Shown here piece by piece: positions 30,385 through 47,134 of a DNA stretch of 64,000 nt. Every line of letters begins with the position of its first letter. Positions within the stretch are counted from its first letter, which is position 1. Position numbers and translations under genes: made by a program. Origin of the DNA: Gelidibacter japonicus (GTDB lineage: Bacteria > Bacteroidota > Bacteroidia > Flavobacteriales > Flavobacteriaceae). Location: contig NZ_BJKB01000014.1 in NCBI RefSeq assembly GCF_010725055.1, forward strand, positions 1 to 64,000. Reading direction: 5' to 3'. Below the pieces are notes generated by a model, which was not told the origin of the DNA, searched no databases, and saw only the letters and a list, made by a program, of their open reading frames with translations.

Positions 30385-32712
30385 CTATGGCACCACATTA
30401 AAACTCGCTTTCAATTTTGTAGTAGAATCCCCACCTATCCATACATTGAAAGCACCAGGCTCTACTTCCCATTTATTATTTGCAGTATAAAATTGTAACA
30501 GTTCAGCGTTAATCGTAAAACTAACCGTCTTGGAATCTCCAGCTTTCAATGAAATTTTTTCAAAGCCTTTCAATTCTTTGATTGGACGCACCAAACTTCC
30601 CACCAGGTCTCTGATGTACATCTGCACCACTTCTTCACCATCAACATTGCCCGTATTTTTAACAGTTACGGATACCTTGATCTCACCATCGGCAGCCATT
30701 TCAGTTTGATCCAATTTGAGATCAGCATACTCAAATGTGGTATAACTCAAGCCAAATCCGAAAGGATACAAGGCGCCCTTAGGAGCATCCCGATAGCCAG
30801 AAAAGGTGACATGATTTTGACTAAATGGTCGTCCCGTATTTTTTTGGTTGTAGTACAAAGGCTCTTGACCCACATGGTGCGGAAAGGATACTGGCAATTT
30901 CCCCGAAGGATTATAATCTCCAAACAGCACATCGGCAATGGCATTACCAGATTCAGAGCCCAAATGCCAACACTCTAAAATAGAAGGGACAATTTCAGAG
31001 GCACGACTAAGATCCATTGGTCGCCCGTTCATCAGCACAATAACCACATTTTTATTTGCCTTATAGATCGCTTCCAAAAGTTCATTTTGAAGTCCAGCAA
31101 AACCAATATCTACCTGACTTCTCCCCTCTCCGGTTTGATAGGCGTTTTCACCAATTGCCAGCAACACGACATCTGCTTTTTTTGCTGCGGCAACAGCAGC
31201 AGGAATGCCTAAAGCATCGGTAGTATTAAATTTTAAAGGATGTAGAAACTGATTGGCCCCTGGTTCAACAGTTGGTATGGTCAAATCGACACCTTTTTCA
31301 TAATAGACTTTGGTGTTTTTACCAACCACCCCTTTTACGCCTTCCAATAGAGACACGGCAGAATTGTATTCGCCTTTTCCTCTCCAATTGCCCAATGGGG
31401 AATCCTTATCATTGGCCAAAGGTCCAATAACAGCAATGCTTTTGATATCTTTTGACAATGGTAGAATTTTGTTGTCATTCTTAAGTAGTACGATGGACTT
31501 TTTTGCAACTTCTCTTGCAAAGGCTAAATTTTCTGGGGTATATACTTCGTTCTTTTCACGTTCTTCATCACAATATTTATAAGGGTCATCAAACAATCCC
31601 AACTCAAACTTCAACCGTAGCACACGTCTAACGGCATCATCTATATGTTCTATCGAAATCTTATCCTCATTCAACAAAGCCTCTAAATGTGCTTCATAAG
31701 CATAAGACTCCATATCCATGTCGCTGCCTGCATTTAAGGCGATTTCTGCGGCGTGTTTCTTATCCCTCGCATAGCCGTGAGCAATCATCTCACCAATAGA
31801 TCCCCAATCTGATACCATTAGTCCGCTCCAATTCCATTCTCCTTTCAAAAGATCGCGTTGTAAAACTTTATCCCCAGTTGCAGGAATACCATCAATATCA
31901 TTAAACGAATTCATAAAAGTGGCAACCCCTGCTTCTGCAGCAGCTTTAAATGGTGGTAAAATCGTATTGTGCAATTCATGGACCCCGATGTTCACGGTGT
32001 TATAATCTCGTCCAGCCTCTCCAAATCCATATCCGGCAAAATGTTTTGCACATGCAGCAATTGTAAATTCAGACGACAGATCATCGCCTTGAAATCCTTT
32101 GATACGCGCCACCCCAATTTTTGAATTCAAGAATGGATCCTCCCCGGCACCTTCCATTACGCGACCCCAACGTGCATCTCGGGATACATCTATCATTGGC
32201 GCAAACGTCCAGTGCAAACCAGAAGCAGCAGATTCCTTAGCGGCAATTTCTGCCGATTTTTGCATCAGTTCCAAATCCCAACTAGCGCTTTCACCCAACG
32301 GAATTGGGAAAATAGTTTTATAGCCATGAATCACATCGTAGGCAAAAATCAAAGGAATCTTCAGACGGCTATTGTCCATAACAATCTTTTGCGTTTCCCT
32401 GATACTTGCTACAGAGGTGACATTCAACATTGAGCCGACTTCGCCCCTTTTCAGTTTTTCCAATTTATGCTGATCACCTTGCGAAGATGTCGGACCTGTT
32501 GCATCCCATCCCCCACTATATTGTACCAATTGCCCAATCTTTTCATTGAGACGCATTAAGGCCAAAACAGAATCTACTTTTTGTTCGATGTCATTAGTTG
32601 AAGACGACGGTTTTACATTGGGATTATTGACAGTTGAAGAAAACAATAATGCAATTAATGAAAGCTTTAAACTTACAATGGCTGTATAAAAAATAGTAGT
32701 GGAAATTTTCAT
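30385..32712 (-). CDS. GH3 beta-glucosidase (BglX-type)
   Basis: A 775-residue exported exo-glycosidase. After a signal segment (LKLSLIALLFSSTV), the N-terminal GH3 barrel includes LKIPLIFAYDVIHGYKT and AACAKHFAGYGF. The nucleophile Asp is in GLMVSDWGSIG near residue 304. The second domain has VKKSIVLLKNDNKILPL and the usual VLLAIGENAYQTGEG segment, and a C-terminal fibronectin-type domain starts near YPFGFGLSYTTFEY. Length and order match periplasmic BglX. It removes glucose from the non-reducing end of beta-gluco-oligosaccharides. It is the last gene of the beta-glucan operon, 14 bases after the EEP gene. Confidence 0.92.
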   Translation of the reverse strand: MKISTTIFYTAIVSLKLSLIALLFSSTVNNPNVKPSSSTNDIEQKVDSVLALMRLNEKIGQLVQYSGGWDATGPTSSQGDQHKLEKLKRGEVGSMLNVTSVASIRETQKIVMDNSRLKIPLIFAYDVIHGYKTIFPIPLGESASWDLELMQKSAEIAAKESAASGLHWTFAPMIDVSRDARWGRVMEGAGEDPFLNSKIGVARIKGFQGDDLSSEFTIAACAKHFAGYGFGEAGRDYNTVNIGVHELHNTILPPFKAAAEAGVATFMNSFNDIDGIPATGDKVLQRDLLKGEWNWSGLMVSDWGSIGEMIAHGYARDKKHAAEIALNAGSDMDMESYAYEAHLEALLNEDKISIEHIDDAVRRVLRLKFELGLFDDPYKYCDEEREKNEVYTPENLAFAREVAKKSIVLLKNDNKILPLSKDIKSIAVIGPLANDKDSPLGNWRGKGEYNSAVSLLEGVKGVVGKNTKVYYEKGVDLTIPTVEPGANQFLHPLKFNTTDALGIPAAVAAAKKADVVLLAIGENAYQTGEGRSQVDIGFAGLQNELLEAIYKANKNVVIVLMNGRPMDLSRASEIVPSILECWHLGSESGNAIADVLFGDYNPSGKLPVSFPHHVGQEPLYYNQKNTGRPFSQNHVTFSGYRDAPKGALYPFGFGLSYTTFEYADLKLDQTEMAADGEIKVSVTVKNTGNVDGEEVVQMYIRDLVGSLVRPIKELKGFEKISLKAGDSKTVSFTINAELLQFYTANNKWEVEPGAFNVWIGGDSTTKLKASFNVVP

Positions 32713-32726
32713 TCGGTTAATTTATT

Positions 32727-33584
32727 TTATTTAACTATGAGTTTGACAAAAACCGGAAAGTGATCCGAAGGAAATCTAAAGTCTATAGAGCTTGAAAGCG
32801 TCGCATATTTTTCAACATTAATCCCATCGGAAACCATGATATAATCAATTCTTCTGGTTACAGGCTCATCATATTTAAAAGCATTAAATGTACCTTCGGG
32901 TCCAAAAACAACCTCAGCTTTTTCTCGAGAGTCTGAAAGTTGGTTTTTCAAAATTGTCACCACCTCGGAATTGGGTTCTACGTTGAAATCGCCCATAATG
33001 ATTACCGGATACTTCTGGGTGTTCACCTCATTAATCTTATCCAAAATAAGCAGCATACCCTCTTTTTGGGCCACCTTTCCAACATGATCTAAATGGGTAT
33101 TAAACACCCATATTTTTAGTTTACTTTCTTTAAATGTAAATAATCCATAAGTGCAAACCCTTGGATAGGCGGCATCCCAACCCTTGGAAACAACGTCAGG
33201 AGTTTCGGAAAGCCAAAATGTATGTTCTTTTTCAACACTTAATTTGTTGCTATTGTAATAAATTCCCGCATGCTCACCTTCCTGACCGCCGTCACGACCT
33301 TTACCAATAAATTCGTAATCTTTTAGGGATTCCTTTAAGTCTTCCACCTGATTTGGCCTTGCTTCCTGAACTCCAAGAATATCAGGTTCCAAAAACAGGA
33401 TTTGAGAACTTAGAAAGTTCTTTCTATTGGGCCATGCATTTTCTTTGTCAGATGCAATATCCAGACGCAAATTATAAGTCATGACCTCAAGGTCGTTTTC
33501 TAAATTCACTTGAACCTGATTTAAACTCTTACAACCTGTTAGAGTTAAGGTCGCGATAAGCAATCCTATTATAAACTGTTTCAT
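32727..33584 (-). CDS. Lipoprotein of the endonuclease/exonuclease/phosphatase (EEP) family
   Basis: A 285-residue lipoprotein (LTLTGCKS) with a complete EEP fold: VMTYNLRLD, LGVQEARPNQ (metal Glu), FNTHLDHVG (catalytic His), MGDFNVEP (Asp/Asn pair) and PSDHFPVFV. The superfamily cleaves phosphodiester or phosphomonoester bonds, in nucleic acids but also in sphingolipids and phosphoinositides. Being surface or periplasmic and inside a glucan operon, it more likely acts on phosphate esters of a glycan or lipid than on DNA. It abuts the GDPD-GH16 gene with no gap, so the two are translated from one message. Confidence 0.87.
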   Translation of the reverse strand: MKQFIIGLLIATLTLTGCKSLNQVQVNLENDLEVMTYNLRLDIASDKENAWPNRKNFLSSQILFLEPDILGVQEARPNQVEDLKESLKDYEFIGKGRDGGQEGEHAGIYYNSNKLSVEKEHTFWLSETPDVVSKGWDAAYPRVCTYGLFTFKESKLKIWVFNTHLDHVGKVAQKEGMLLILDKINEVNTQKYPVIIMGDFNVEPNSEVVTILKNQLSDSREKAEVVFGPEGTFNAFKYDEPVTRRIDYIMVSDGINVEKYATLSSSIDFRFPSDHFPVFVKLIVK

Positions 33585-35174
33585 TTATTGATCTTTAGAT
33601 TTTTGTTGAAAAACCCTGACGTAATCTACGGTCATTCTCTGCGGAAAAATCGATTCATCAATTCCCTGTCTACCTCCCCACATGCCACCTACAGCCACAT
33701 TTAAGATGAGATGGAATTTTTTGTCAAAAGGCCATTCTGCAGTCGTTTTATGTTCGTTTGCTATGTGGTTATAAACAACACCATCCAACAAAAAATCTAT
33801 TTTCTCTGGGGTCCATTCTATGGCAAAAACATGAAAAGTGTCGTTTGGACGATCAATAAAAATAGTTTTACCTTTTTGGGTTCCTTTTAAATGATTATAA
33901 GCTTTAGTATGGATGGTACCATGAATGGTATCATTGTCATAGCCAACATGTTCCATAATATCAATTTCACCACTTTCGGGCCAACCCAATTCTTTTCTGT
34001 CTTCGCTTAACATCCATATAGCGGGCCACATGCCACGGCCTTTTGGCAGTTTTGCACTGACTTCAATACGTCCGTATTTCCACTCAGCCAAACCTTCAGT
34101 AGTTAATCTTGCCGATGAATATTGGGCAGAATCAATTTCCTTTTTGTATTGAGCCCAAGGTTTTAGATTAGGATTGTTGAAGTCTTTGTTCGCGAGTTTT
34201 TCTTTATGCGCCTCAATGATCAGATGCCCGTTTTCCACTCTTGCATTTTTTAAGCTATCGGTATAATATTGCTTTTCTTCATTGGCGATAAATCCGTAAC
34301 TATAGGTCCATTTTGTAGCATCTGGTTTTCCGTTATAATTGAATTCATCACTCCAGACCAATTCATAGTCTGTGTTATAAGTAGCGCTGTTTCTAATACG
34401 CTCAAATAAAAGTTCTGGTTCATCTGTGGTGATATAATCAAAACCATTTGCCAAAAGCAAATCTAAATCTTCAGCTTTATTGACGGTCCAAGCATTCAAT
34501 TTTAAGTTGTGTGCTTTGGCACTCTCTATCCATTCTGGCTTTCGTTTAAAAATATGGATAGCATAATCCAATCCAGAAACCCCATCATCCCTTAGTGTTT
34601 CAGGCGACTTTGAGCCATCTAAATATTGAGTTTTGGCATTCGGGTTTATTTCTATGATTCTCTTTAATAACTCATAGCTAAAACTGATGTAATAGGAGAT
34701 ATACTTTTCTGCCTTAAGTTCATCAACGAGTTCCAATACTTTTTCTGCCATAAGCACATTTCGACCTTCAGTTTTTGAAGGTTTGATCTCACAAACCAAG
34801 CCTGTACCTGGATTGTTTTCCATTCCTGCAAGCAGATAATCTCTTAAGGTGGGCAAAACCTCACCATTGGACAATTTGTGTTTTGACAATTCTGAATAAG
34901 TGGTCTCCTCAATAAACAAACCATTATAGTCTGGATCATGGTTCACCACCAACACATTGTCTGAAGTCATTCGAACGTCAAATTCTGAACCGGTGCAGCC
35001 CAACTCTATTGCATGTTTTAGGGATGCAATAGAGTTTTGGGGAAGATTTAGAGCCTTCCATGCACCTCTGTGGGCAATCACTGGATTCTCAGCAAATGCA
35101 AACGCACTCTCGGCTTTAGTTGATTTACAAGCATTAAAAGTTAAAAAGGCTAAAACAATAAATATGAAACGCAT
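33585..35174 (-). CDS. GDPD-GH16 fusion lipoprotein: glycerophosphodiesterase plus beta-glucanase
   Basis: A 529-residue two-domain lipoprotein from the start MRFIFIVLAFLTFNAC, where Cys16 is the lipid anchor. A longer start at 35210 would hide the signal. Domain 1 (residues 25-265) is a glycerophosphodiester phosphodiesterase: IAHRG (His35, Arg36), SEFDV (Glu64, Asp66), VVNHD (His79) and CEIKPS (metal Glu). The usual PENT is PQNS. Domain 2 (residues 275-525) is GH16: ELVWSDEFNYNGKPD, the catalytic ESGEIDIMEHVG (ExDxxE), and LNVAVGGMWGG. The linker is about ten residues and the frame is unbroken. The pair would remove glycerophosphate groups and cut internal beta-1,3/1,4-glucosidic bonds on one molecule. 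It is co-transcribed with susCD, EEP and GH3. Confidence 0.9.
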   Translation of the reverse strand: MRFIFIVLAFLTFNACKSTKAESAFAFAENPVIAHRGAWKALNLPQNSIASLKHAIELGCTGSEFDVRMTSDNVLVVNHDPDYNGLFIEETTYSELSKHKLSNGEVLPTLRDYLLAGMENNPGTGLVCEIKPSKTEGRNVLMAEKVLELVDELKAEKYISYYISFSYELLKRIIEINPNAKTQYLDGSKSPETLRDDGVSGLDYAIHIFKRKPEWIESAKAHNLKLNAWTVNKAEDLDLLLANGFDYITTDEPELLFERIRNSATYNTDYELVWSDEFNYNGKPDATKWTYSYGFIANEEKQYYTDSLKNARVENGHLIIEAHKEKLANKDFNNPNLKPWAQYKKEIDSAQYSSARLTTEGLAEWKYGRIEVSAKLPKGRGMWPAIWMLSEDRKELGWPESGEIDIMEHVGYDNDTIHGTIHTKAYNHLKGTQKGKTIFIDRPNDTFHVFAIEWTPEKIDFLLDGVVYNHIANEHKTTAEWPFDKKFHLILNVAVGGMWGGRQGIDESIFPQRMTVDYVRVFQQKSKDQ

Positions 35175-35268
35175 AATGTAATCTTTAAAAGCATTGAAGC
35201 ATATAACCATCTGAAAAAGAGTCCCTGCTACTAATCTTAAGTTGTAACTTGTTTATAGAAATTTGGTT

Positions 35269-36873
35269 TTAATATCCTGTATTTTGAGGGTAATTTGGTC
35301 CTAATAAATCTAAATCAATCTGTGCAATCGGAAAATTGATATAATGAGGTCTCCAATTTTCTCTTGGGTCTTTCTCTCCTAAATTAACAGGGAAATACTC
35401 ACCATCCCCAGCATAACTAGTAATCTGTCTGTCAATAACACTCTGCCCCATTCTTTTTAAAGTAAACCAACGTTGGCCTTCAAAAGCAAGTTCCCTGGCC
35501 CGCTCATCCAAAATCGCTTGCTCATCGACACTGGTCAACGGTGCGGCTTTTGCTCTAGTTCTTACAGCATTTATATACGGTAAAGGATCTCCTGAAGATC
35601 TCATAATTGCCTCTGCAGCAATCAAATAAGTTTCAGCCAATCGATAGACCATAATATTACTTCTGTTCAGGTAAGAATCTGGATTATCGTCCTCTTGGGC
35701 GAATTTTATACAAGACGGATGAAGATTTTGATAGTACTTCTGATAAGTCTTGCTCGGATTATCCAAATCTGTTATGGGTTGATAAATAGTAATTTCCTGA
35801 CCAACATTTGGACCTGAAGTATAATAATATTTCAATCTGAAATACGTGTTGTCATCTCTGGTATCATTTGGATCTTCCGCTAAAAGATTCAATAAATATA
35901 AGTTTGGCAAAACTCGTGAGAATCCTCTACCACCTTGTTCTACGTTAGCCTCAATACCCGCAATATGAAAATACTGGGTCACATAATTGGCGTTCATCAT
36001 TGTATTCTCTCCGCCGCCCAATAAGTCATCTTTGGACTGGATTACAAATAAGGCCTCAGCGTGATTTCTATCGCCAGAAAAAACATCCGCAGTGGTTGGC
36101 ATCAAACTGTGTGGGCCTTCCTCAATTAGAGAAACCGCCTGATATTTAGCTTCTTCCCAATTTCCTTCCCACATGGCCACCTTAGCTTTTAGATGTTTGG
36201 CCGTTCCTTTGGTGACGCGTCCCGCAGCATCCGTCCATCCCAAATGATCTATGGAAAAACTAAGGTCATTATTTAATAATGTAAAGATTTCTTCTTTTGA
36301 GGATCTATCATTAACTACGTCAAACGCATTTTCCACGGTTACCGTTTCAGTACTTATATAAATATTGTTAAACATTCTGTATAAATAGAAATAAGCTTCA
36401 GCTCTAAAAAATTTGGCCTCCGCTATAATCTGATTTTTCGCATTCTCATTTACACCTTCAACCTCCTCTGCCGCATTTATAATTGCAGTAGCTTTATTAG
36501 CCAGGTTATAGTAATGTTTCCAGAAAATCCCAGAGACAAAATTGGCTCCTTGATCAACTGGAGAAACACCTCTTTCATACCTTCCCATTAATCCTGTATA
36601 ACCTGTTCTACTAAATGCCAGGTCACTTCTGGAAGACATCAAAACGGTACCCATAAAATCTTCCGTCCCATTATTATAACGATCTCTATTTATCTTATAT
36701 AAACTAACAACACCAGACTTTAAGCCCTCTTCTGTAGTATATATGTAATCTGAGTCAATAAGTGTGCTCGGTTGCTCTTCTAGGAAATCTTGACAAGAGG
36801 CTAAGAAAAAGAATAGCGCTATGGAAAGTAAGATACTAATTTTTATTTCCAAATTAAAAAACTTCGTTTTCAT
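35269..36873 (-). CDS. SusD/RagB-family surface glycan-binding lipoprotein
   Basis: A 534-residue lipoprotein (ALFFFLASCQDFLEEQPS). SusD features include ATAIINAAEEVEG, FRAEAYFYLYRMFNNIYI near residue 153 and VYRLAETYLIAAEAIMRSSG near 411. The end reads ILDERARELAFEGQRWFTLKR and then NYPQNTGY. It pairs with the SusC gene 18 bases upstream to bind and import oligosaccharides at the surface. The downstream GH16 and GH3 genes suggest a beta-glucan such as laminarin, or a phosphoglycerol-substituted glucan. Normal length, no oddities. Confidence 0.95.
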   Translation of the reverse strand: MKTKFFNLEIKISILLSIALFFFLASCQDFLEEQPSTLIDSDYIYTTEEGLKSGVVSLYKINRDRYNNGTEDFMGTVLMSSRSDLAFSRTGYTGLMGRYERGVSPVDQGANFVSGIFWKHYYNLANKATAIINAAEEVEGVNENAKNQIIAEAKFFRAEAYFYLYRMFNNIYISTETVTVENAFDVVNDRSSKEEIFTLLNNDLSFSIDHLGWTDAAGRVTKGTAKHLKAKVAMWEGNWEEAKYQAVSLIEEGPHSLMPTTADVFSGDRNHAEALFVIQSKDDLLGGGENTMMNANYVTQYFHIAGIEANVEQGGRGFSRVLPNLYLLNLLAEDPNDTRDDNTYFRLKYYYTSGPNVGQEITIYQPITDLDNPSKTYQKYYQNLHPSCIKFAQEDDNPDSYLNRSNIMVYRLAETYLIAAEAIMRSSGDPLPYINAVRTRAKAAPLTSVDEQAILDERARELAFEGQRWFTLKRMGQSVIDRQITSYAGDGEYFPVNLGEKDPRENWRPHYINFPIAQIDLDLLGPNYPQNTGY

Positions 36874-36891: not shown

Positions 36892-39800
36892 TTAAAATTT
36901 AACTCTTACGCCAAAGGTGAAACTCCTTGAATCCGGATAACCAGTATCTGCATTTGAAAACGTATTTCTAATATTTACTTCTGGACTATATCCAATATAA
37001 TCAGTATTTGTAAATAAATTTGTGCCTGTCAGATAAAATCTAATTTGATCTAATCCCAATTGTTTGTTGACTTCATCCGATAATGTGTACCCCAAACTTA
37101 CTGTTCTAAGTCTCACATAGGAAGCGTCTCTAACAGCTAACGCATTTAGATATAAAGGTGTAGAGTCAAAATTAGGTCTTGGGAATTCAGTAGAAGGATT
37201 TTCAGGTGTATAATAATTTACTTTTACCCCATTGACCTTACCTTGGATGGTACCCCCATTATTAAAATCTGATAAAAACGGATTGACTTTGGTAGCCCCC
37301 TCAACAATATAGAAATCTACAAACAAATCGAATCCCTTATATGCCAATGTTGTTGATATCGAGCCAAACCAATCAGGATTTGGATCTTTAAACACACGAT
37401 CTTCCTGCGTGATTTTACCATCAGGAACACCGGTTGCATTTCCGTTGGCATCAACCCCATTGGTATCGGCAATTTTTATATCTCCTGGTCTTAAATTACT
37501 TTGTGTTAATGCTGAATCTGGGTTTGCTTGTGGCGCATTGGCAAAGTCATCGCCTTCTTGCCAGATTCCATCAAATTGATATTGGTAAATCACACCAACT
37601 GGCTGACCTACATAATAATTGTAAGTATCATCTGCCAATATTGGGTTTCCATCACCATCATCATATAATTCTATCAATTTGTTTTTGTTATTTGACCAAT
37701 TTGTTGAAACCGACCATCTAAAATCGTCCGTATTGATAATATTGGCTGTTAAGCTCAATTCAACACCTGTGTTTTGTAATTCACCCGCATTAAAATAAGT
37801 ATAGCGATATCCAGTAGTGGACGGTACACCACGTCTTAATAGCAGATCAGTGGTTCTTGCATCGTACCAGTTAAAATTACCTACCAATACTCTGTTGAAA
37901 ACCGAAAAATCCAAACCAAGGTTAGCCGTTGTTATTCTTTCAAACTTTAAATTCGTATTTGGTAAAATAACAGAAGGTGAATATCCAGAAGCAGATTGAT
38001 CATCAAAAATATAATTTTGGCCTTCCGCTGTAAAAAGTGACGTATATGCACGCCCTAAATCATTTACTAAAGAACCGTAACTGGCTCTAAACTTCAATTC
38101 CTGAATTGAATTGACATCTTTCAAAAAGCCTTCCTTATGAATTTGCCAGGCGAATGAGGCTGCAGGATTAAAGCTCCACTTATTATCTGCAGAGTTGACA
38201 GAGGCGCCATCGGCTCTACCAGTTATTTCAAACAAGTATCTATTCATAAAATTATATCGGGCTCTCGCCATAAAAGAAGCCAATCTCTGCTGATTTTTAT
38301 CGCGTTCTACCGTAACATTTCCAATCGCATTTGTAATTCCATCATATCCAAGGCTTTCATTAGTAAAACCTTGTCCTTCTGTAAATGTTCTGCTAAACTT
38401 ATTTTCTTGTGCAGACTGAACCAGGGTCACGTTAAGTTGATTATTATCATTGAACTCTTTATCCCAGGTTAAGATATTTTCAATTAAATAGGATTCTCTC
38501 AATTGATTATCAATTCTAGCAATTCCATTAACATCATCGCCTGCAGAACTAAGCGATGATTGATATTGACCTCTTTCAGAAGTTCTTCTGGTCATATTGG
38601 TTTTCAATTGATACTGTAGATCTTTTGTAATTTGCCAAATAGGGGTGATATTAATAACATAATCATTGCCTTTTTCATCGTGTTGCTGTTGGCGAAGATT
38701 AAATATTGGGTTTATCGGTGATGATTCCTCGCCGCTCGGAAAACGAGTAAGGTTACCATTCTCATCATAGGCTCTTCCCAATGGTGAAAATGTAATGACG
38801 TTAACATTAGCCGGTCGTTCTGTGTCATCATTCAATAAATTGACATCAAAGTTGACTGAAAATTTATCGCTGATTTTTTGATCCACATTCAAACGGAACG
38901 TTTTTCTGGTATAACTCGATGTTGGTATGATTCCGTCTTCTCTAAAATAGTTAAGACTTCCAAAAACCTTGGTCATATCCGTTCCACCACTGACACTTAT
39001 GGCTTGACTGTTTACAAGTCCCTTTTTCAGCAATTCATCCTCCCAATTTACAAATTGATTATTCGCTATGGACTCCAATTCTATCTCAGAGAAGATGGTT
39101 GAATCGTCCGGATAAACATCACCTGCATTGGTAGACCTCACTGCTTCTCTTCTTAATTGGGCAAATTCCTGACCACTATATACGTCAAAATTTCGTTCCA
39201 ATGTTTTGGTCGTCACGTAACCATGATAACTTATGCTCATTTTATTGGCCTTTCCACGCTTGGTCGTAATTAAGACAACCCCATTTGCACCTCTGGATCC
39301 ATAAATAGCCTGTGCAGAGGCATCTTTCAAGAACTCAATAGATTCAATATCATCAGAATCAATATCTTCAATGCCGCCATCTCTAATAATACCGTCAACC
39401 ACATATATGGCACTGACACTTCCTTCAATAGAGCCTCGTCCTCTGAAAATAATATCAGATGTACCGCCTGGTCTCAAGGTTCCACCCCCTACATTAACCT
39501 GTAAACCAGCAATTCTACCTCTCAACATTTCGTTTACGTCGGAGGTTGGTGATAGTGTGGCCTCCTCTAAGTCAACGGTAGCAACCGAATTCACGATATC
39601 ACTTTTCCTTTGAGTCCCATATCCCACAACAACGACTTCATCCAATGCACTTGCATCCGTTTGCAGTACAATAGTTATAGGGTCGGTTGATGCTTTCACT
39701 TCTTGGGTTTTAAATCCGACGTATGAAACCACTAAAAGTGAATTAATACTCGCAATATCAAAAGTGAATTTACCATCAAAATCTGTTGATGTCCCATTTC

Positions 39801-39969
39801 TTGTGCCTTTTTCTATCACAGTAGCACCTGCCAATGGCATGTTGTCATCTGCCGAAATCACAGTACCGCTTACCGACGTTTGCGCCTGAGAGGCAACTGT
39901 AAAAATGCAAGACATAAAGAGTAACGCGCCGAGCATTCTTATTTTTTGATTAAATAATTTTAATTTCAT
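36892..39969 (-). CDS. SusC/RagA-family TonB-dependent glycan importer
   Basis: A 1025-residue outer-membrane protein. The signal peptide ends near ASQAQT. Next comes the carboxypeptidase-like domain VSGTVISADDNMPLAGATVI, then the TonB box DEVVVVGYGTQRKSD. The plug has RGRGSIEGSVSAIYVVDGI and IYGSRGANGVVLITTK. The barrel ends RSFTFGVRVKF with a terminal Phe. It is the first gene of the operon and would be driven from the 305-base gap at 39970-40274, which contains phased TGTNGTGGT repeats. The adjacent LuxR-type sensor is the natural regulator. Confidence 0.95.
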   Translation of the reverse strand: MKLKLFNQKIRMLGALLFMSCIFTVASQAQTSVSGTVISADDNMPLAGATVIEKGTRNGTSTDFDGKFTFDIASINSLLVVSYVGFKTQEVKASTDPITIVLQTDASALDEVVVVGYGTQRKSDIVNSVATVDLEEATLSPTSDVNEMLRGRIAGLQVNVGGGTLRPGGTSDIIFRGRGSIEGSVSAIYVVDGIIRDGGIEDIDSDDIESIEFLKDASAQAIYGSRGANGVVLITTKRGKANKMSISYHGYVTTKTLERNFDVYSGQEFAQLRREAVRSTNAGDVYPDDSTIFSEIELESIANNQFVNWEDELLKKGLVNSQAISVSGGTDMTKVFGSLNYFREDGIIPTSSYTRKTFRLNVDQKISDKFSVNFDVNLLNDDTERPANVNVITFSPLGRAYDENGNLTRFPSGEESSPINPIFNLRQQQHDEKGNDYVINITPIWQITKDLQYQLKTNMTRRTSERGQYQSSLSSAGDDVNGIARIDNQLRESYLIENILTWDKEFNDNNQLNVTLVQSAQENKFSRTFTEGQGFTNESLGYDGITNAIGNVTVERDKNQQRLASFMARARYNFMNRYLFEITGRADGASVNSADNKWSFNPAASFAWQIHKEGFLKDVNSIQELKFRASYGSLVNDLGRAYTSLFTAEGQNYIFDDQSASGYSPSVILPNTNLKFERITTANLGLDFSVFNRVLVGNFNWYDARTTDLLLRRGVPSTTGYRYTYFNAGELQNTGVELSLTANIINTDDFRWSVSTNWSNNKNKLIELYDDGDGNPILADDTYNYYVGQPVGVIYQYQFDGIWQEGDDFANAPQANPDSALTQSNLRPGDIKIADTNGVDANGNATGVPDGKITQEDRVFKDPNPDWFGSISTTLAYKGFDLFVDFYIVEGATKVNPFLSDFNNGGTIQGKVNGVKVNYYTPENPSTEFPRPNFDSTPLYLNALAVRDASYVRLRTVSLGYTLSDEVNKQLGLDQIRFYLTGTNLFTNTDYIGYSPEVNIRNTFSNADTGYPDSRSFTFGVRVKF

Positions 39970-40274
39970 GAAAATTGGTTTTTGTTAAAATTATATTTTA
40001 TGTTCTTGTAATTATGAATGAATCATGTAAGCCTCCCTCCAGGTTCGGCTCTTGTAAATTTAAACCCAAAAAAAGATTTAAGTGAGAAATTGTACCTCGA
40101 TAAAAAACGAACAACTCAATTTGTTTAAGAAAACATTAACAAAGCAGGCATTGTATTACGCATAAACACTAAGAAACCTCCTTTTATACAATTTTGATAA
40201 AAAATTGACTTAAGACACTGTATATTAGCTCCTGTAGTGGTTTTGTCGTGGTAAAAAAAACGCTTGTAGTGGTA
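39970..40274. other. Regulatory gap upstream of the beta-glucan operon
   Basis: 305 AT-rich bases between the sensor-regulator gene stop and susC. It holds the direct repeats described at 40233-40273. No exact -7 motif for susC was seen; the closest is TAATTTTA on the minus strand about 30 bases before the start codon. Confidence 0.55.
40233..40273. promoter_or_regulatory. Three phased TGTNGTGGT direct repeats, candidate operator
   Basis: TGTAGTGGT at 40233-40241, TGTCGTGGT at 40244-40252 and TGTAGTGGT at 40265-40273. The starts are 11 and 21 bases apart, one and two helical turns, as expected for a protein binding one DNA face. They lie about 265-305 bases before the susC start and end two bases from the regulator stop codon. 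Confidence 0.5.
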
Positions 40275-43046
40275 TTAAAAATTTAGGATGTACTCAACAA
40301 GTCCATCGTTGTGCTCTAATTTCAATCGTTTTCGGAGACGATAACGTTTTGTTTCCACACTTTTTGTAGAGATGTTTAGTAAAGGTGCGATTTCTTTGGA
40401 AGATAAGTTCAATCTGAGATAGGCACAAAATCGCAAATCATTAGGAGTGAGATCAGGGTGTGCTTGTTTGATTTTATCTAGAAAATCTTTATCGGCATTA
40501 TTAAAGGCTTGTTCAAAAAATTGCCAATCTTTGGTATTATTTAAATTTTTATCAATCAGTTTTAATGCTGATCGATTTTCTTCAGTTGGTTTTCCTTTTC
40601 TTAATTCTTTTTTAATACTGTTGAGCACTTCATTTTTCTTAATGATACTCATGGTAGATATTGCCAACTCCCGGTTTTTACTTTCTATTTCCTGATTCAA
40701 CTTTTCATTTTTGATCTTCATGATCGTTTGCTCATTCTCCAATTGCTCATGTTTCATTTTTTTACTGTAATAGCGCTTATAGGTTTTGTGGGTGACAAAT
40801 CCTAAAAACACGAGCAGCAAAGTATATAGGATGATGGCCAAATTACTAAGGTACCAAGGTCTATTGATAGTAAAAGAATAGCTTTCCAAATTTTCTGACG
40901 GTTCATTGCCAATCAAGGCCCGTACTTCAAAACTGTAATCGCCAAAGGAAAGATTTTCAAAACTAGTTCGAGATTCATTGGACCATTTGCTCCACTTTTC
41001 AGAAAGCCCATTTAATCGGTATTGATATTTTACTTCGAGAAATTTATCAAATTCAGGTACTGAATATTCAAAGCTGATAATACCTTTTTTATAATTAAGA
41101 TCACCTTTTGCACCAACCTCTAACCTTTCAACCTGCTCGTCAAGCCCCTCGAGTGTCACTGAATTCAAATAAACATAATAATTTTGTGTGTACTCAATTT
41201 GCGAAAGATCAATGGTAATATATCCATTGGCTGTTCCCAACAGATACCTATCGCCATTAATTAGGGTGATGTTTTCATAGCCCAATGGTCCCTTTCTTAA
41301 ATAAGATGGAATAGAAATGGTATTGATCTTTGGTTTATTGGTCACATCATCTGTGGTGACATAAACGATATTGTCTTTTGTAAATGCCCATAACTTATTC
41401 GTTTTATCAACTATGAGCTTTCCTGAAATATAATTATCTTCCGTAAACAGGACACTTAGGATCGGATCTCTTTCAAAACTATCCTTTTTGGGATCAAAAT
41501 TAAAAACGCCGTCTTCTGAGGCAAAAACAATCTGATTGTTGTAGGCTACCAAACTCGAGTTTTTGCCTACCGAGAGTGTCTTTTCCATTTTAAGTTCTTC
41601 CACTTTAGTATATTGTTCATTCAGTTTTAAACGGAACACCCCTTTGTACTCATGGTTCACCCAAACCTGATTACTATTATCAATTGTAAAATAACGTGAT
41701 GAGTTTTTAAATCCTTCAATTTTGTTTCTTACCTGCCAATGACCATTAATTTGTTCTAAAATGATCAAGCCACTATAATTGCCTTGGAGCAGTAATTGGT
41801 TATTATCTGGAATCTGCTTAAAATCCCAAGTCCCCAGAACCGTACTGATGTGTTGTGCTTTTTCTCCTTCAATCAAGAAGGTTCCAAGATGATGTCCACA
41901 AAATAAAGTTTCATTGTTATGATTATAAAGGCTCCAAACTTGTCCCTCAGTACCCTTAATTGGTTTAAAAATGGCATTATTATCCTTCCATTTTCTATAA
42001 AAAAGACCTTGATTGGTTCCAATATAAAGATGGTCCTTAAAAACCTGCGATGCATATACGGTTCCTATGACACCTTCATAGTCAAATAAGGTTTTGATGG
42101 CCGATTTAACATTGACACAGTCTATTCCATTATCCAACCCCGCCCACACATTTTGGGCTTTATCTTCAAAAAGTGACAACACCGTATTGTTGCTCAACCC
42201 TCTTTTTTGGGTGATTTGATAATCGAGTTCACCGTCTTTGGTGATATGTAACAATCCATTTGAAATTGTTCCAACCATAAAGGACCCATCCTTTAGCTGG
42301 ATTCCGGTGAAAACACTCGTGTTATTCAGTATGGAATCAGCAGCAATGTCCCATTTTCGGAGTTTCTCATCTTCATAAATAAAAAAACCGCGATTTCTCG
42401 TGATCAACCTCAACTGATTATCCACTTCAAACACATTGACTACTCGCCCCTTCTTAACAATATCCGCTTCAATTATGAGGTTGGGCTCACCCCCATCAAT
42501 GCGATACAAGCCCTCATTGGCCACGTGAAAATAAATGTGACTGTTAACCTTAAACAGTTTGTAAATAATATTTTCAACCTCAATGATTTTGAATTTTTCG
42601 GTTTCGCTATTGTAAAAATAGATATGGTCATTGGTTTGAAATAGCACCCATTCATCATAATCAATAATATTCCACACTTGCTCGTCCTCTACCATTTTCA
42701 TTTCGAGTTTTGGTACTAAGGACATATATTCCAAAATGCCAAATTGATCAGCAGTCCAATATCCAAATTCAGCATAACAACCCGTATAAATTTTATTTCC
42801 AATAACGTTCACGGCACGCATGACCGTATTATTTGGCGAATTGTACAACCTCCAGCTGGCACCGTCAAACTCAAGAAGCCCACGATTATTTGCTACGTAG
42901 ATAAAATTATTTGAAGCTTGAGACAACATCCAGTTTTGATTGTCACCTCGATATTCTTCAGTAGAAAATCTTTCAATCGGAGGCATTTCCTGGCCGATAA
43001 CTGTCAAGTTAAAAAGTAAAAAAGCAAGAAGAAGAAAACGTCCCAT
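40275..43046 (-). CDS. One-protein sensor-regulator: propeller, Y_Y_Y domain, transmembrane helix, LuxR-type HTH
   Basis: A 923-residue protein from the start MGRFLLLAFLLFNLTVIGQ, which gives a proper signal peptide; the longer start at 43121 does not. Residues 20-640 form repeated beta-propeller blades (NNRGLLEFDGASWRLY, NTVLSLFEDKAQNVWAGLDN). A triple-tyrosine domain follows (KYQYRLNGLSEKWSKW, FGDYSFEVRA), then one membrane helix (LAIILYTLLLVFLGFV). A cytoplasmic coiled coil precedes a C-terminal LuxR/GerE helix-turn-helix (LRFCAYLRLNLSSKEIAPLL, TKSVETKRYRLRKRLKL). It resembles the hybrid two-component sensors of polysaccharide loci but lacks kinase and receiver domains, so sensing and DNA binding would occur in one chain. 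It probably controls the adjacent susC operon. Confidence 0.9.
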   Translation of the reverse strand: MGRFLLLAFLLFNLTVIGQEMPPIERFSTEEYRGDNQNWMLSQASNNFIYVANNRGLLEFDGASWRLYNSPNNTVMRAVNVIGNKIYTGCYAEFGYWTADQFGILEYMSLVPKLEMKMVEDEQVWNIIDYDEWVLFQTNDHIYFYNSETEKFKIIEVENIIYKLFKVNSHIYFHVANEGLYRIDGGEPNLIIEADIVKKGRVVNVFEVDNQLRLITRNRGFFIYEDEKLRKWDIAADSILNNTSVFTGIQLKDGSFMVGTISNGLLHITKDGELDYQITQKRGLSNNTVLSLFEDKAQNVWAGLDNGIDCVNVKSAIKTLFDYEGVIGTVYASQVFKDHLYIGTNQGLFYRKWKDNNAIFKPIKGTEGQVWSLYNHNNETLFCGHHLGTFLIEGEKAQHISTVLGTWDFKQIPDNNQLLLQGNYSGLIILEQINGHWQVRNKIEGFKNSSRYFTIDNSNQVWVNHEYKGVFRLKLNEQYTKVEELKMEKTLSVGKNSSLVAYNNQIVFASEDGVFNFDPKKDSFERDPILSVLFTEDNYISGKLIVDKTNKLWAFTKDNIVYVTTDDVTNKPKINTISIPSYLRKGPLGYENITLINGDRYLLGTANGYITIDLSQIEYTQNYYVYLNSVTLEGLDEQVERLEVGAKGDLNYKKGIISFEYSVPEFDKFLEVKYQYRLNGLSEKWSKWSNESRTSFENLSFGDYSFEVRALIGNEPSENLESYSFTINRPWYLSNLAIILYTLLLVFLGFVTHKTYKRYYSKKMKHEQLENEQTIMKIKNEKLNQEIESKNRELAISTMSIIKKNEVLNSIKKELRKGKPTEENRSALKLIDKNLNNTKDWQFFEQAFNNADKDFLDKIKQAHPDLTPNDLRFCAYLRLNLSSKEIAPLLNISTKSVETKRYRLRKRLKLEHNDGLVEYILNF

Positions 43047-43171: not shown

Positions 43172-43900
43172 TCAAGATAGTACCAACATCAACAAGGCCG
43201 CTAAACAAGCACCTACAATTGGTCCCACAATAGGAATCCATGCATAGCCCCAATCGCTGGCAGCTTTATTTTTTATGGGCAACATGGCATGCATTATTCT
43301 TGGCCCTAAATCACGGGCAGGATTTATGGCATAACCCGTTGTGCCACCCAAAGACAAACCTATTGACCATACAACAAACGCTACGGGTAAAGCGCCCAAA
43401 GAACCTAAGCCAATTACGGTTTCAGGTTCGGTTAAGGTAGCATCGGTGAAATAAAGCACCGAAAAGATCAATACGAAGGTGCCAATTGTTTCACTCATAA
43501 AATTGGCAAAAGTGTTTCTGATTGCTGGAGCAGTGCAAAACACAGCCTTCTTTAATTGAGAGTCTTCCGTAGCTATAAAATGTTGCTTATACACTATCCA
43601 TACAGTTCCCGATCCAATCATTGCGCCAATCATTTGTGCCAGAATATAGGTCGGAACTTCACTCCAAGGAAATTTTGCAGCAACTGCCAAACCTATACTT
43701 ACCGCTGGATTTAAATGTGCACCGCTGTATGGCGATGAAACAATCACTCCAACATAAACCGCTAATGCCCATCCCGTCGTTATAACGATCCAACCACCAC
43801 TATTGCCAATGGTTTTACTCAATACAACATTGGCTACAACGCCACCTCCCAAAAGGATTAAAAGTGCTGTCCCTATAATTTCTGATATAAATGGTGTCAT
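43172..43900 (-). CDS. glpF: Glycerol facilitator (aquaglyceroporin)
   Basis: A 242-residue MIP-family channel with six membrane helices and two half-helices. Both NPA motifs are present: GAHLNPAVSIG near residue 62 and GYAINPARDLGPR near 193. The Asp directly after the second NPAR is typical of glycerol-permeable members rather than strict water channels. It lets glycerol cross the inner membrane by facilitated diffusion, and the kinase encoded just upstream traps it. It is the last gene of glpD-glpK-glpF, 63 bases after glpK. Confidence 0.93.
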   Translation of the reverse strand: MTPFISEIIGTALLILLGGGVVANVVLSKTIGNSGGWIVITTGWALAVYVGVIVSSPYSGAHLNPAVSIGLAVAAKFPWSEVPTYILAQMIGAMIGSGTVWIVYKQHFIATEDSQLKKAVFCTAPAIRNTFANFMSETIGTFVLIFSVLYFTDATLTEPETVIGLGSLGALPVAFVVWSIGLSLGGTTGYAINPARDLGPRIMHAMLPIKNKAASDWGYAWIPIVGPIVGACLAALLMLVLS

Positions 43901-43963
43901 CTTAGTTATTGATTATTATTGTTTATTGGTCATTTTCAATCTTTATTGGCCTAGCAGATAGCA

Positions 43964-45460
43964 CTAATTATTCTTTGACCAATATTCTAAGGCATCGATT
44001 GCTCTGTACCAGCCTTTGATGTCCTTTTCAATTGCTGTTCTGTCTTTTTTTGGTGAAAATCGTCTATCGGTTTGCCAAATCTGTTGGATTTCTTCAGGAT
44101 TCTCCCAAAACCCAACCGCCAGACCGGCTAAAAACGCAGCACCCATGGCTGTGGTCTCCACTATTTTAGGTCGCACGGTTTCCGTATTTAGCACATCCGC
44201 CTGAAATTGCATCAACATATTGTTGATGGTAGCACCGCCATCCACACGTAATTCTTTTATTGAGATTCCAGAATCTGCCTCCATGGCCTTAAGGATGTCC
44301 ATGGTTTGATAGGCAATTGATTCTACGGCAGCACGAGCAATATGCGCATCTGAACTACCGCGGCTCAATCCGAAAATGGTGCCTTGGGCATGCTGATTCC
44401 AATGAGGCGCACCTAAACCAACAAAAGCAGGCACAAAATAAACCCCTTCCGAACTTTCCACAGAAGCGGCTAAGTTTTCAACATCATTGGAGGTTCTAAT
44501 AATTTTTAAACTATCGCGAAGCCATTGAACCACAGCGCCGGCGATAAAGATACTGCCTTCAAAAGCATAAGTGGTTTTACCATTGATTTTCCAAGCCACC
44601 GTAGTCAATAGATTGTTTTTTGACACCACAGGTTTATCTCCAATGTTCATCAACATAAAACAACCAGTGCCATAGGTGTTCTTCACCATTCCTGGCTTGG
44701 TACACATTTGGCCAAATAAGGCTGCCTGTTGGTCTCCCGCAATTCCGGCAATGGGAATTTTGGAATCATAAAATGTAGATTTTGTATGCCCATAAACCTC
44801 ACTCGATGCTTTTACTTGGGGCAGCATACTTCTCGGGATGGTCAATAACTTCAACAATTCATCATCCCAATCCATGGTATTGATATTGAAGAGCATAGTT
44901 CTGGAGGCATTGGTCACATCTGTAATGTGCTGCTCTCCCTTTGTGAAATTCCAAATCAACCACGTGTCAATGGTTCCTAAAATAAGATCTCCGGCCTCTG
45001 CCTTTTTCCGTACACCTTCCACATGGTCCAAAATCCATTTCACTTTGGTGCCAGAAAAATAAGAATCGATGACAAGGCCTGTCTTTTCCCTGATCAGATC
45101 ATTCTTGCCCTGTTTTTTCAAGTCGTCACAATACACAGAAGTTCTTTTATCCTGCCAAACAATGGCATTGTAAACAGGTTTTCCCGTTTTCCTATCCCAT
45201 ACCACAACAGTTTCACGCTGATTGGTAATTCCTATGGCAGCAATATCTCCTACATCCAAGCCTTTTTTTGCAATGGCTTCTGCAGCGACTCCTGCTTGTG
45301 TTGACCAGATTTCCAGAGGGTCATGTTCCACCCAACCCGGTTTTGGGAAATGTTGGGCAAACTCCTTTTGCGCTACCGAAACGATATTGCCCTTTTTGTT
45401 AAAAACGATAGCTCTTGAACTCGTAGTACCCTGATCTAAAGCGAGAATATAATTTGCCAT
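43964..45460 (-). CDS. glpK: Glycerol kinase
   Basis: A 498-residue FGGY-family kinase that phosphorylates glycerol to sn-glycerol-3-phosphate with [17 protein letters not shown] starts the first actin-like domain. [19 protein letters not shown] and AIVWQDKRT follow, then the glycerol-binding [17 protein letters not shown] and [23 protein letters not shown] and [17 protein letters not shown] are in the second domain. Length matches the family. It lies between glpD and glpF and is very likely induced with them when GlpR is released. Confidence 0.96.
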
Positions 45461-45524
45461 ATTGTAGTTTTTTATGTTTAAAAATAAAATAAAATCAGGT
45501 CTTTATAAGTAAGAACGGCCCCAT

Positions 45525-47087
45525 TTATATGATATATTGATCTGCCAATTGGGTGAATTCCTCAATCTGGGATTGTTTCCAAGCCTCGTCCTTATCTAAA
45601 TACTCTGCTAATATCTCAGCCACTTGTGGCGCGACGTCTTGCGAAGCCTTCGCATCCAAGAATAGGATACGCACGCGTCTTGCCAAGACATCTTCTACCG
45701 ATAGGGCCATTTCATTTTTTACAGCCCAAACCACTTCGGCCTTTAAAAATTCCAATCTGGGATGCAACTTTTCACCAAGCTCTGGCGACCCCTTAATCAG
45801 TTCCTCAATGGCTCTTTGATCTGTGCCATAAATATACAGGTGGTCGTCATCATCCGCTGAACCGTCGGCTCCATGAATACTCAGATGCTTTGTTTGACAT
45901 TTCTCACGAGGCAATTTTCCCAACGCAATCACCTTGTTTATGGTGTCTTGGGCCATTCTTCTATAGGTGGTCCATTTGCCGCCGGTAATGGTAATCAAAT
46001 CGGACGATGACACAATTATCTTATGACTTCTTGAAATTTCCTTGGTTTTTTCTGAAGGATCTTTTGGTGCAGCCAGCGGTCTTAATCCTGCAAAGATGCT
46101 CAATACATCAGCCCTGGACACGTGTTTATTCAAATAGGCGTTGGCAGTTTCCAAAATAAAGTCAATCTCCTCTTCCAGAGGTTTAGGTTCCAAGCTATGG
46201 CTATCGAGCAGCGTATCGGTAGTACCAACCACCACTCTATGATGCCAAGGCACCAAAAAAAGCACTCTCCCATCAGCTGTTTTAGGAATCATAATAGCAT
46301 CGTTGCCCGGCAGAAAGGAGCCGTCCAGCACCAAATGGATACCCTGGCTGGGCCTAACTGTGTTTTTGGCGCCAGCAGTATCCATTTGCAAAATCTCATC
46401 GGTAAACACGCCAGTTGCGTTGATCACTACCTTGGCATTAAAATTATATTCCCTATGTGAGTCTTGGTCAATTGCGGTAACACCACTGACTTTTCCGTCA
46501 GTATCTTTTTGCAATCGGATGACTTTAAAATGATTCAAAAGTGACGCCCCCTGTTCAATTGCAGTCTGAGCAATATTGACTGCCAATCGCGCATCATCAA
46601 ATTGCCCATCATGATATACCACTCCACCTTTAAGATGCTCTGTTTTGATGGTTGAAAGTCTCCGAGAGGTTTCTTTTTTAGAAATTCTTATCGATTTACC
46701 AAAACTTAATTTTCCTGCCAGAAAATCATAGACTTTCAATCCCACAGTGTAAACAATAGCATCCCACCATTTATAGTTAGGAATGATAAACGATTGATTC
46801 TTGACCAAATGTGATGCGTTTTTTAGCATCAGACCACGCTCGTACAAAGCTTCCTGGACCAAATCAATATTGCCTTGCGCCAAATAGCGTACACCTCCAT
46901 GCACCAATTTGGTACTTCTACTGGAAGTCCCCTTTGCAAAATCTGATTGTTCCAAGAGCAGGGTCTTGTAACCTCTGGTGACACTATCCAGCGCTACTCC
47001 CAGCCCTGTTGCCCCACCTCCAATAATAATAACATCCCAATCTGGATTGTTATCTAAGGGTTTTAATAAAGATTTCCTATCGAACAA
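45525..47087 (-). CDS. glpD: Glycerol-3-phosphate dehydrogenase, FAD-dependent
   Basis: An aerobic respiratory dehydrogenase oxidising sn-glycerol-3-phosphate to dihydroxyacetone phosphate at the inner membrane. DWDVIIIGGGATGLGVALD is the FAD-binding start. LEQSDFAKGTSSRSTKLVHG and GVRYLAQGN are family signatures, RPSQGIHLVLD and FLVPWHHRVVVGTTDT follow, and ITGGKWTTYRRMAQD is near the end. No ATG exists before the FAD motif. The frame opens at a TTG at 47129, but that codon lies inside a perfect -7 motif (47127-47134), so I prefer the TTG at 47087, giving 520 residues beginning LFDRKSLLKPL. The exact start is uncertain. First gene of the glp operon. Confidence 0.93.
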   Translation of the reverse strand: MFDRKSLLKPLDNNPDWDVIIIGGGATGLGVALDSVTRGYKTLLLEQSDFAKGTSSRSTKLVHGGVRYLAQGNIDLVQEALYERGLMLKNASHLVKNQSFIIPNYKWWDAIVYTVGLKVYDFLAGKLSFGKSIRISKKETSRRLSTIKTEHLKGGVVYHDGQFDDARLAVNIAQTAIEQGASLLNHFKVIRLQKDTDGKVSGVTAIDQDSHREYNFNAKVVINATGVFTDEILQMDTAGAKNTVRPSQGIHLVLDGSFLPGNDAIMIPKTADGRVLFLVPWHHRVVVGTTDTLLDSHSLEPKPLEEEIDFILETANAYLNKHVSRADVLSIFAGLRPLAAPKDPSEKTKEISRSHKIIVSSSDLITITGGKWTTYRRMAQDTINKVIALGKLPREKCQTKHLSIHGADGSADDDDHLYIYGTDQRAIEELIKGSPELGEKLHPRLEFLKAEVVWAVKNEMALSVEDVLARRVRILFLDAKASQDVAPQVAEILAEYLDKDEAWKQSQIEEFTQLADQYII

Positions 47088-47126
47088 AGTGTATTGATTG
47101 TTATTATTATTCCTTTTATTTGGTTT

Positions 47127-47134
47127 CAAATATA
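47127..47134 (-). promoter_or_regulatory. -7 promoter motif of glpD-glpK-glpF
   Basis: Minus strand reads TATATTTG, an exact consensus match. On the minus strand a TTG (47158-47160) lies 23 bases upstream as a possible -33 element, inside the GAAAC repeat cluster. It predicts transcription starting near 47120. Confidence 0.6.

Follow-up and report, generated by a model that had tools for sequence, protein, structure and literature searches.

A direct-repeat triad and a phased inverted element form the probable operator of a kinase-less, membrane-anchored LuxR-type regulator before a Gelidibacter susC operon

Our analysis of a 64,000-nucleotide stretch of Gelidibacter japonicus DNA (hereafter the window) indicated that three short repeats lying between a regulator gene and susC are very probably the distal operator of that adjacent, membrane-anchored LuxR-type regulator, and that they would act together with a phased inverted element to activate the susC operon. 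Comparison of sequences established that the site is conserved and exactly spaced and that it covaries with the recognition helix; it also established that the inverted pair keeps a constant distance to a TAnnTTT element and that the gap between the two halves of the site varies in steps of roughly one helical turn.

The regulator open reading frame ends at 40275 and susC starts at 39969, both genes being on the minus strand, and the 305-bp gap between them holds three copies of TGTNGTGGT (plus-strand letters) at 40233-40241, 40244-40252 and 40265-40273. These positions bear out exactly the starts at 40233, 40244 and 40265 and the start-to-start spacing of 11 and 21 bases that had been given in the original prediction. 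The copies and the spacing therefore stand, whereas the direction in which they had been read does not, as both flanking genes run on the minus strand and the site is better read there, as direct repeats of ACCACNACA directed towards susC. In gene sense the site is ACCACTACA-N12-ACCACGACA-NN-ACCACTACA, with 1 nt between it and the regulator stop codon: box 1 of the distal direct-repeat triad (ACCACTACA; 40265..40273, minus strand) is followed 21 bp later by box 2 (ACCACGACA; 40244..40252, minus strand) and 11 bp after that by box 3 (ACCACTACA; 40233..40241, minus strand).

As a single motif TGTNGTGGT is not rare, since its 4 matches in the 64-kb window (shuffle mean 1.31) were also reached by 6 of 100 shuffles; the fourth copy, at 45201 within the glpK open reading frame, is the only one outside the site. 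By a naive estimate, three copies inside 41 bp would be expected about 5e-7 times per window, and across the 4.67-Mb genome pairs of TGTNGTGGT separated by 0-30 bp occurred at the window site only (2 overlapping matches; reversed control 0). A chance origin of the repeats was rejected by the shuffles, the genome-wide pair search, the naive expectation and the free-spacing test described below. When the same genome was searched for the 11-bp pair, the window site was the best match with 0 mismatches, and the site of a paralogous regulator with 48% identity was among three matches with 2 mismatches. No regulon was found in this genome beyond these two regulator-adjacent sites at up to 3 mismatches, and the weak matches represent background, because the reversed pattern gave more matches (73) than the pattern itself (46 in total).

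The neighbouring regulator is a protein of 923 amino acids (40275..43046, minus strand; likely ATG at 43046), characterized through Pfam, a structure model, Foldseek and sequence matches, in which a signal peptide, two beta-propellers, a Y_Y_Y domain, a predicted membrane helix, a coiled coil and a LuxR-type HTH follow one another. Its periplasmic sensor (40863..42989, minus strand) is of the HTCS type, comprising the propellers and Y_Y_Y according to Pfam, the model and Foldseek, and the best Foldseek matches of this part were 3ott, 3va6, 4a2m/4a2l and 3v9f, with TMt values up to 0.75. The likely membrane helix (40776..40850, minus strand) was placed from the sequence and the secondary structure of the model, where a hydrophobic stretch opens a long helix at residues 735-815. 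The modelled C-terminal part consists of one long helix and then a small helical domain, with four helices at residues 868-921, and residues 834-850 were modelled at low confidence (pLDDT below 50) and are possibly flexible. The LuxR-type HTH (40281..40451, minus strand) contains the recognition helix STKSVETKRYRLRKRL at 40323-40370 with Ser896 as its class residue, and its GerE match (PF00196; E 1.9e-4, 21.4 bits) falls just under the cut-off of 23.5. No kinase or receiver was found in the regulator by Pfam at E <= 0.001, where Y_Y_Y and this sub-cut-off GerE match were the only hits, in agreement with the earlier description of a kinase-less sensor with a LuxR-type domain of its own. Judged from sequence and model, the regulator looks like an HTCS whose kinase part has been replaced by a coiled coil and a LuxR-type HTH, and it has the features of a membrane-integrated one-component regulator, with sensor, predicted membrane helix and DNA-binding domain in one chain and no kinase.

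Regions behind homologues of this regulator were fetched (114, of which 95 were distinct); a scan of named genomes yielded 4 loci, and the nearest named relatives were Gelidibacter. The three-box model scored above 9 in 84 of the 95 distinct regions, and 77 had the exact 21/11 spacing. As this model was trained on the same data, the test was repeated with a matrix built from the window consensus only, with spacing left free over 1024 combinations and with L001 and L003 left out. Of these 93 loci 54 chose 21/11, the next best spacing was chosen by 3, and 279 shuffles showed no preferred spacing (maximum 3). The motif thus recurs at related loci, which was the check that the original prediction had set for itself. 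Scores were also raised at spacings of 18/11 and 24/11, which we tentatively attribute to a 3-bp self-similarity of the box. Among the 11 regions under the triad score, L019, L032 and L085 keep a recognisable pair, L003 has a different box sequence and L087 has the motif 725 bp downstream. At L024/L057 (G047) the regulator is immediately followed by an open reading frame that looks foreign (transposase-like by eye), and the operator and PUL genes were not found there.

A 20-bp pattern, ACCHMDACANNACCACDACA, was searched in 397 genomes of Flavobacteriaceae, the family of the window, giving 115 matches in 84 genomes and 1 match for the same pattern backwards. With presence of the regulator defined as a match at E <= 1e-150, 221 of the 397 genomes were positive, and all 84 motif-bearing genomes fell among them (P ~7e-26). 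Sixty of the 115 motif matches were located within 100 bp behind a listed regulator and 31 within 45 kb on the same contig; the remaining 24 lay at other places or belonged to genomes for which no regulator position was listed.

The proposed half-site of the regulator has the 9-bp form AC[C/T]ACN[A/T]CA. In our covariation count A and T were weighted equally at position 7, and a clear pair was present in 150 of 187 distinct loci; the 37 loci under the pair score (29 Ser-class, 6 Gly-class and 2 with another helix) were excluded from the count. Regulators with a Ser-class helix (SVExK/R) were accompanied by A at box position 7 in 156/156 boxes and those with a Gly-class helix (GVExH/Q/R) by T in 139/144, and in three SR loci and one GR locus the box follows the Ser/Gly residue. 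This covariation strongly suggests that the boxes belong to the neighbouring regulator, but it reflects few independent changes, at clade level. Paralogues of the regulator beside other susC genes show a similar layout with altered boxes, TTACTACGTCATTACTACGTCA in the L003 clade and ACTACATCATTACTACATCA in the L131 clade, and within the window's own genome the Gly-class pattern gave one match, an L003-type site (2 mismatches; reversed control 0). Both the 84 of 84 motif genomes that hold the regulator and a box sequence that tracks the recognition helix uphold the original assignment of the repeats to the neighbouring regulator type.

Promoters of PULs can also carry sites for global factors, and binding by the regulator itself is something that we infer. 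The boxes might instead be the target of a different protein, such as a global cytoplasmic regulator, and stand behind the regulator gene by coincidence. This would leave unexplained why position 7 varies with the recognition helix encoded by the gene immediately adjacent, why no motif-bearing genome lacks the regulator and why paralogues at other susC genes carry a box variant of their own in a similar layout, and we consider it improbable. Two loci, L258 (G403, SVDVSR) and L148 (G417, SVEMSR), have another recognition helix, their boxes were not found, and they are candidates for further specificity classes. At L257, which is the same as L141 (G403, another family), the direct pair ACCACAACATTACCACAACA is directly followed by an inverted copy, giving a compact two-part site.

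Nearer to susC, the window contains an inverted element (GTTGTTCGTTTTTTATCGAGGTAC; 40092..40115, minus strand; core TGTTCGTTTTTTATCGAGGT at 40094-40113) in which two half-sites of opposite orientation lie about 11 bp apart, as is seen when the element is read on the opposite strand. Its agreement with the boxes is partial (ATCGAGGT against TGTCGTGGT). A putative susC -7 element of the TAnnTTT type (TAAATTTA; 40055..40062, minus strand) lies 51 bp beyond the point where the inverted core begins; TAnnTTT is the -7 box of Bacteroidetes. The predicted transcription start is a few bases past 40055 on the minus strand. Behind the regulator homologues the inverted element (consensus GATGTATGTTTTTTGTTGAGGTAA) scored above 6 in 87 of the 95 loci. 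By class, it carried TGT in the Ser class and TGA in 57 of the 61 Gly-class loci picked with TG[AT]NGT[AG], where its form was TGA[T/C]GTA...ATGTA, and in this comparison the inverted element changes together with the boxes. Among Ser-class loci, 62 of 69 had TAnnTTK at +50 from the first half of the inverted element (other offsets averaged 0.44 each); in the Gly class it was weaker, with 26 of 61 loci at +50/51 (other offsets averaging about 0.4). The Gly-class distances in this class comparison were taken only within a preset 90-120 bp from the pair start; a wider Gly-class list (60 to about 220 bp) placed 54 of 59 at 101-106 bp and the others at 67, 97, 98, 115 and 116, with 13 loci without a match. 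The reading of the repeats as an operator stands as far as a conserved, regulator-linked site is concerned and needs to be amended in its extent, as the triad appears to be the distal half only and the inverted pair to complete the site.

The architecture was also followed at sites away from the regulator. Of 55 motif matches not adjoining a listed regulator 40 were fetched, and leaving out L284, for which the wrong orientation had been taken, gave a distal set of 39. Inverted elements were accepted here at a score above 12 with a matrix trained on the adjacent set, many of those promoters being related to each other, and were present in 36 of the 39 sites, at distances of 99-102 (7), 110-114 (13), 120-125 (10), 129-134 (5) and 151 (1); all 36 had a -7-like element at 50/51. 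In two distal sites, L294 and L299, the inverted element was not found, and these look like chance matches; the third failure, L297 (G189), had an inverted element score of 11.4. The box pair of L297 stands in front of the regulator gene itself and is a possible autoregulatory site. Box 1 seems optional, because it scores above 6 in only 21 of the 39 distal sites. Ten distal products assigned by Pfam comprised two SusC, a GH16 with PKD, a GH81, a GH2-type match, four proteins with a sorting tail and the L297 regulator.

Behind the regulator, box 1 started 1 nt after the stop codon in 54 of the 84 scoring loci and at an offset of -2 to +4 in 82 of them. Such a position could be expected of an RNA or terminator feature at the 3' end of the regulator mRNA, an explanation that we regard as extremely unlikely, since like sites with the same downstream elements lie thousands of bases from the regulator or on other contigs. 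The close placement of the triad behind the stop codon also raises the possibility that the regulator gene, the operator and susC travel as one unit.

Between box 3 and the inverted element, 81 loci gave distances of 100-103 bp (6), 109-115 (32), 121-127 (33) and 132-138 (8), with single values of 146 and 161; in the window the distance is 126. The half-to-half distances cluster near 101, 112, 124 and 135 bp, with a step of about 11.2 bp. Over periods of 10-12 the maximum R was 0.73 for the 81 loci, compared with a mean of 0.13 and a maximum of 0.34 in 1000 draws from a smoothed null, and with one vote per sequence cluster the observed value was reached by 0 of 500 null draws (41 clusters), 1 of 500 (13 clusters) and 1 of 500 (9 clusters). 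The step per rung was 11.4 bp in the adjacent set, 10.8 bp in the distal set and 11.2 bp together, and the best single period varied (11.75, 10.65 and 11.65, respectively). The distances from the regulator stop codon to the inverted element and to the -7 element formed clusters similar to this ladder.

A ladder of this kind could arise spuriously, through shared ancestry or through a slip of 11 bp in register, given that both halves contain units spaced by 11 bp and that orthologues share lengths. A register slip of the motif finder was excluded, as in each of the 81 loci the inverted element scored more than 32 bits better than any shift of 9-13 bp. With regard to descent, the ladder persists with one vote per cluster and at the 36 of 39 other sites, distances taken from the stop codon, or to the -7-like element, form similar clusters, and 40 disjoint nearest-neighbour pairs differed in distance by 0-3 bp (24 pairs) or 9-13 bp (10) and less often by 4-8 bp (5), with one pair differing by 29 bp. 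We therefore hold an artefact to be very unlikely. In these sequences the ladder of about 11.2-bp steps implies helical phasing of the two halves, and from this phase a contact between the halves would follow.

In the mechanism that we propose, a glucan oligosaccharide would meet the HTCS-type sensor, and the HTH of the regulator, anchored in the inner membrane, would bind the triad and the inverted pair simultaneously. The triad would offer three direct half-sites (21 + 11 bp) on one helix face, right behind the regulator gene, and two further half-sites, inverted, would be met some 100-150 bp further downstream, immediately before the susC core promoter. The DNA of about 100-150 bp between the halves would be bent, giving at the membrane either a short loop or a complex along one face of the helix, and the susCD-GDPD/GH16-GH3 operon would be switched on. 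Because the site precedes the core promoter, activation is preferred over repression; that the regulator sits in the membrane, binds this DNA and activates the operon is what we infer from sequence. In a more general form, kinase-less HTCS-like membrane regulators, widespread in a single bacterial family, would activate glucan-uptake promoters by keeping the distal direct repeats and the promoter-proximal inverted pair together in one stereospecific loop at the inner membrane, with selection keeping whole helical turns (about 9 to 13), a proposal for which we judge the chances to be evenly balanced. If true, comparing genomes would directly reveal the twist of DNA in vivo (about 11.2 bp per turn).

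The main rival for the loop step is phasing without a loop, in which the HTHs hang from one membrane plane, the half-sites must face the membrane and the ladder records this common face. Spacings of 11, 21 and about 101/112/124/135 bp would all keep roughly one face, and in the model the HTH shares its chain with a likely membrane helix; both points suit such a requirement. Flexibility at the low-confidence residues 834-850 would blur it, and a recruitment-type system tolerated a 5-bp insertion according to the available part of PMC11856585. A common face set by the membrane can be interpreted as a tentative but substantial possibility, to be weighed seriously beside the loop.

The likely target operon starts with susC (36892..39969) and continues with susD (35269..36873), a GDPD + GH16 fusion enzyme (33585..35210), an endonuclease/exonuclease/phosphatase-family protein (EEP; 32727..33584) and a GH3 beta-glucosidase-type enzyme (30385..32712), all on the minus strand. 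Glycerol genes, encoding an aquaglyceroporin, a glycerol kinase and a glycerol-3-phosphate dehydrogenase, are located at 43172-47129, upstream of the PUL. The locus is conserved. Gene content was examined in 17 distinct loci with a regulator identity of at least 53%, of which 15 had the GDPD part (L061 had a GH16 match only and L057 neither) and 6 had the glycerol trio. In the same genome, the 48% paralogue stands before susCD with two GH16 matches and a GH3 and has no GDPD match, a gene set of laminarin type. Because the GDPD + GH16 fusion and the glycerol genes occur at the window locus, and the laminarin-type set of the paralogue is without GDPD, the window locus may serve a beta-glucan decorated with glycerophosphate. 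LuxR-annotated first genes have been noted in laminarin clusters in the accessible part of PMC13188888.

For a regulator family that is widespread (match in 221 of the 397 genomes), these results provide an operator code that can be tested, including a rule that links helix to box. The loci of this regulator carry beta-glucan enzymes, and laminarin-type glucans represent a large marine carbon flux. Target genes should be predictable from sequence, as the whole promoter architecture was present at 36 of the 39 distal matches, and through the ladder it becomes directly testable how a membrane-tethered regulator deals with its DNA and whether it depends on phase. Membrane-integrated one-component regulators and direct-repeat PUL operators are kinds already known; open-licence searches gave no description of the present variant, in which a kinase-less HTCS/LuxR protein is joined with a triad, a phased inverted partner and a specificity rule. 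Likewise, no earlier description of the operator was found among the matches listed in the open-licence literature, although an account in a subscription journal is possible, and PMC12125979, in the part available, concerns another regulator, while a term search of PMC11345257 gave no match.

The sensor fold and the sequence matches of the window regulator are common to HTCS of Bacteroides PULs (BT4663, BT3049 and BT4673), whose periplasmic two-propeller and Y_Y_Y sensor it shares. An HTCS has a histidine kinase, a receiver and an AraC-type HTH in one chain (in part after the available text of PMC3878776), a combination that was not found in the window regulator. In the same partial source, the motifs predicted for HTCS are direct repeats with an average of 21 bp, whereas the window system has a LuxR-type HTH, three direct boxes and a phased inverted pair. 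SusR-like regulators (BT3705 and paralogues), likened here by description, are likewise membrane proteins with a periplasmic sensor and a cytoplasmic DNA-binding domain and are linked to susCD. The accessible portion of PMC3878776 gives them predicted direct-repeat sites at an integral-turn spacing of 67 or 77 bp and reports no significant similarity of the SusR DNA-binding domain to known ones. The tandem 67/77-bp spacing is not seen in the window system, where the direct boxes are 21 and 11 bp apart and the halves mostly 101-135 bp apart, and where an inverted promoter-proximal pair is added.

CadC, ToxR, TcpP and ChiS/TfoS also combine a sensor, a membrane anchor and a DNA-binding domain in one chain, in comparison to which the window regulator has a C-terminal LuxR-type HTH; CadC, ToxR and TcpP have a different DNA-binding fold. 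CadC needs two sites, Cad1 and Cad2, according to the part of PMC5430869 that is available. For ChiS/TfoS of V. cholerae, insertions between the sites showed little phase requirement and phasing was not critical (available part of PMC11856585), and it is for this reason that the ladder observed here is notable.

In LacR loops separated sites are joined and helical phase matters, as is proposed for the window system. AraC forms a short DNA loop in which spacing matters by helical phase. For lac looping in E. coli the accessible part of PMC1762422 gives fitted repeats of 11.60 and 11.08 bp, above 10.5 owing to supercoiling, and the range of 11.08-11.60 bp contains the 11.2 bp per rung of the window system. 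LacR and AraC are soluble regulators whose periodicity was obtained from engineered spacers, whereas the regulator of the window system is predicted to be membrane-anchored and its periodicity was read from natural variation.
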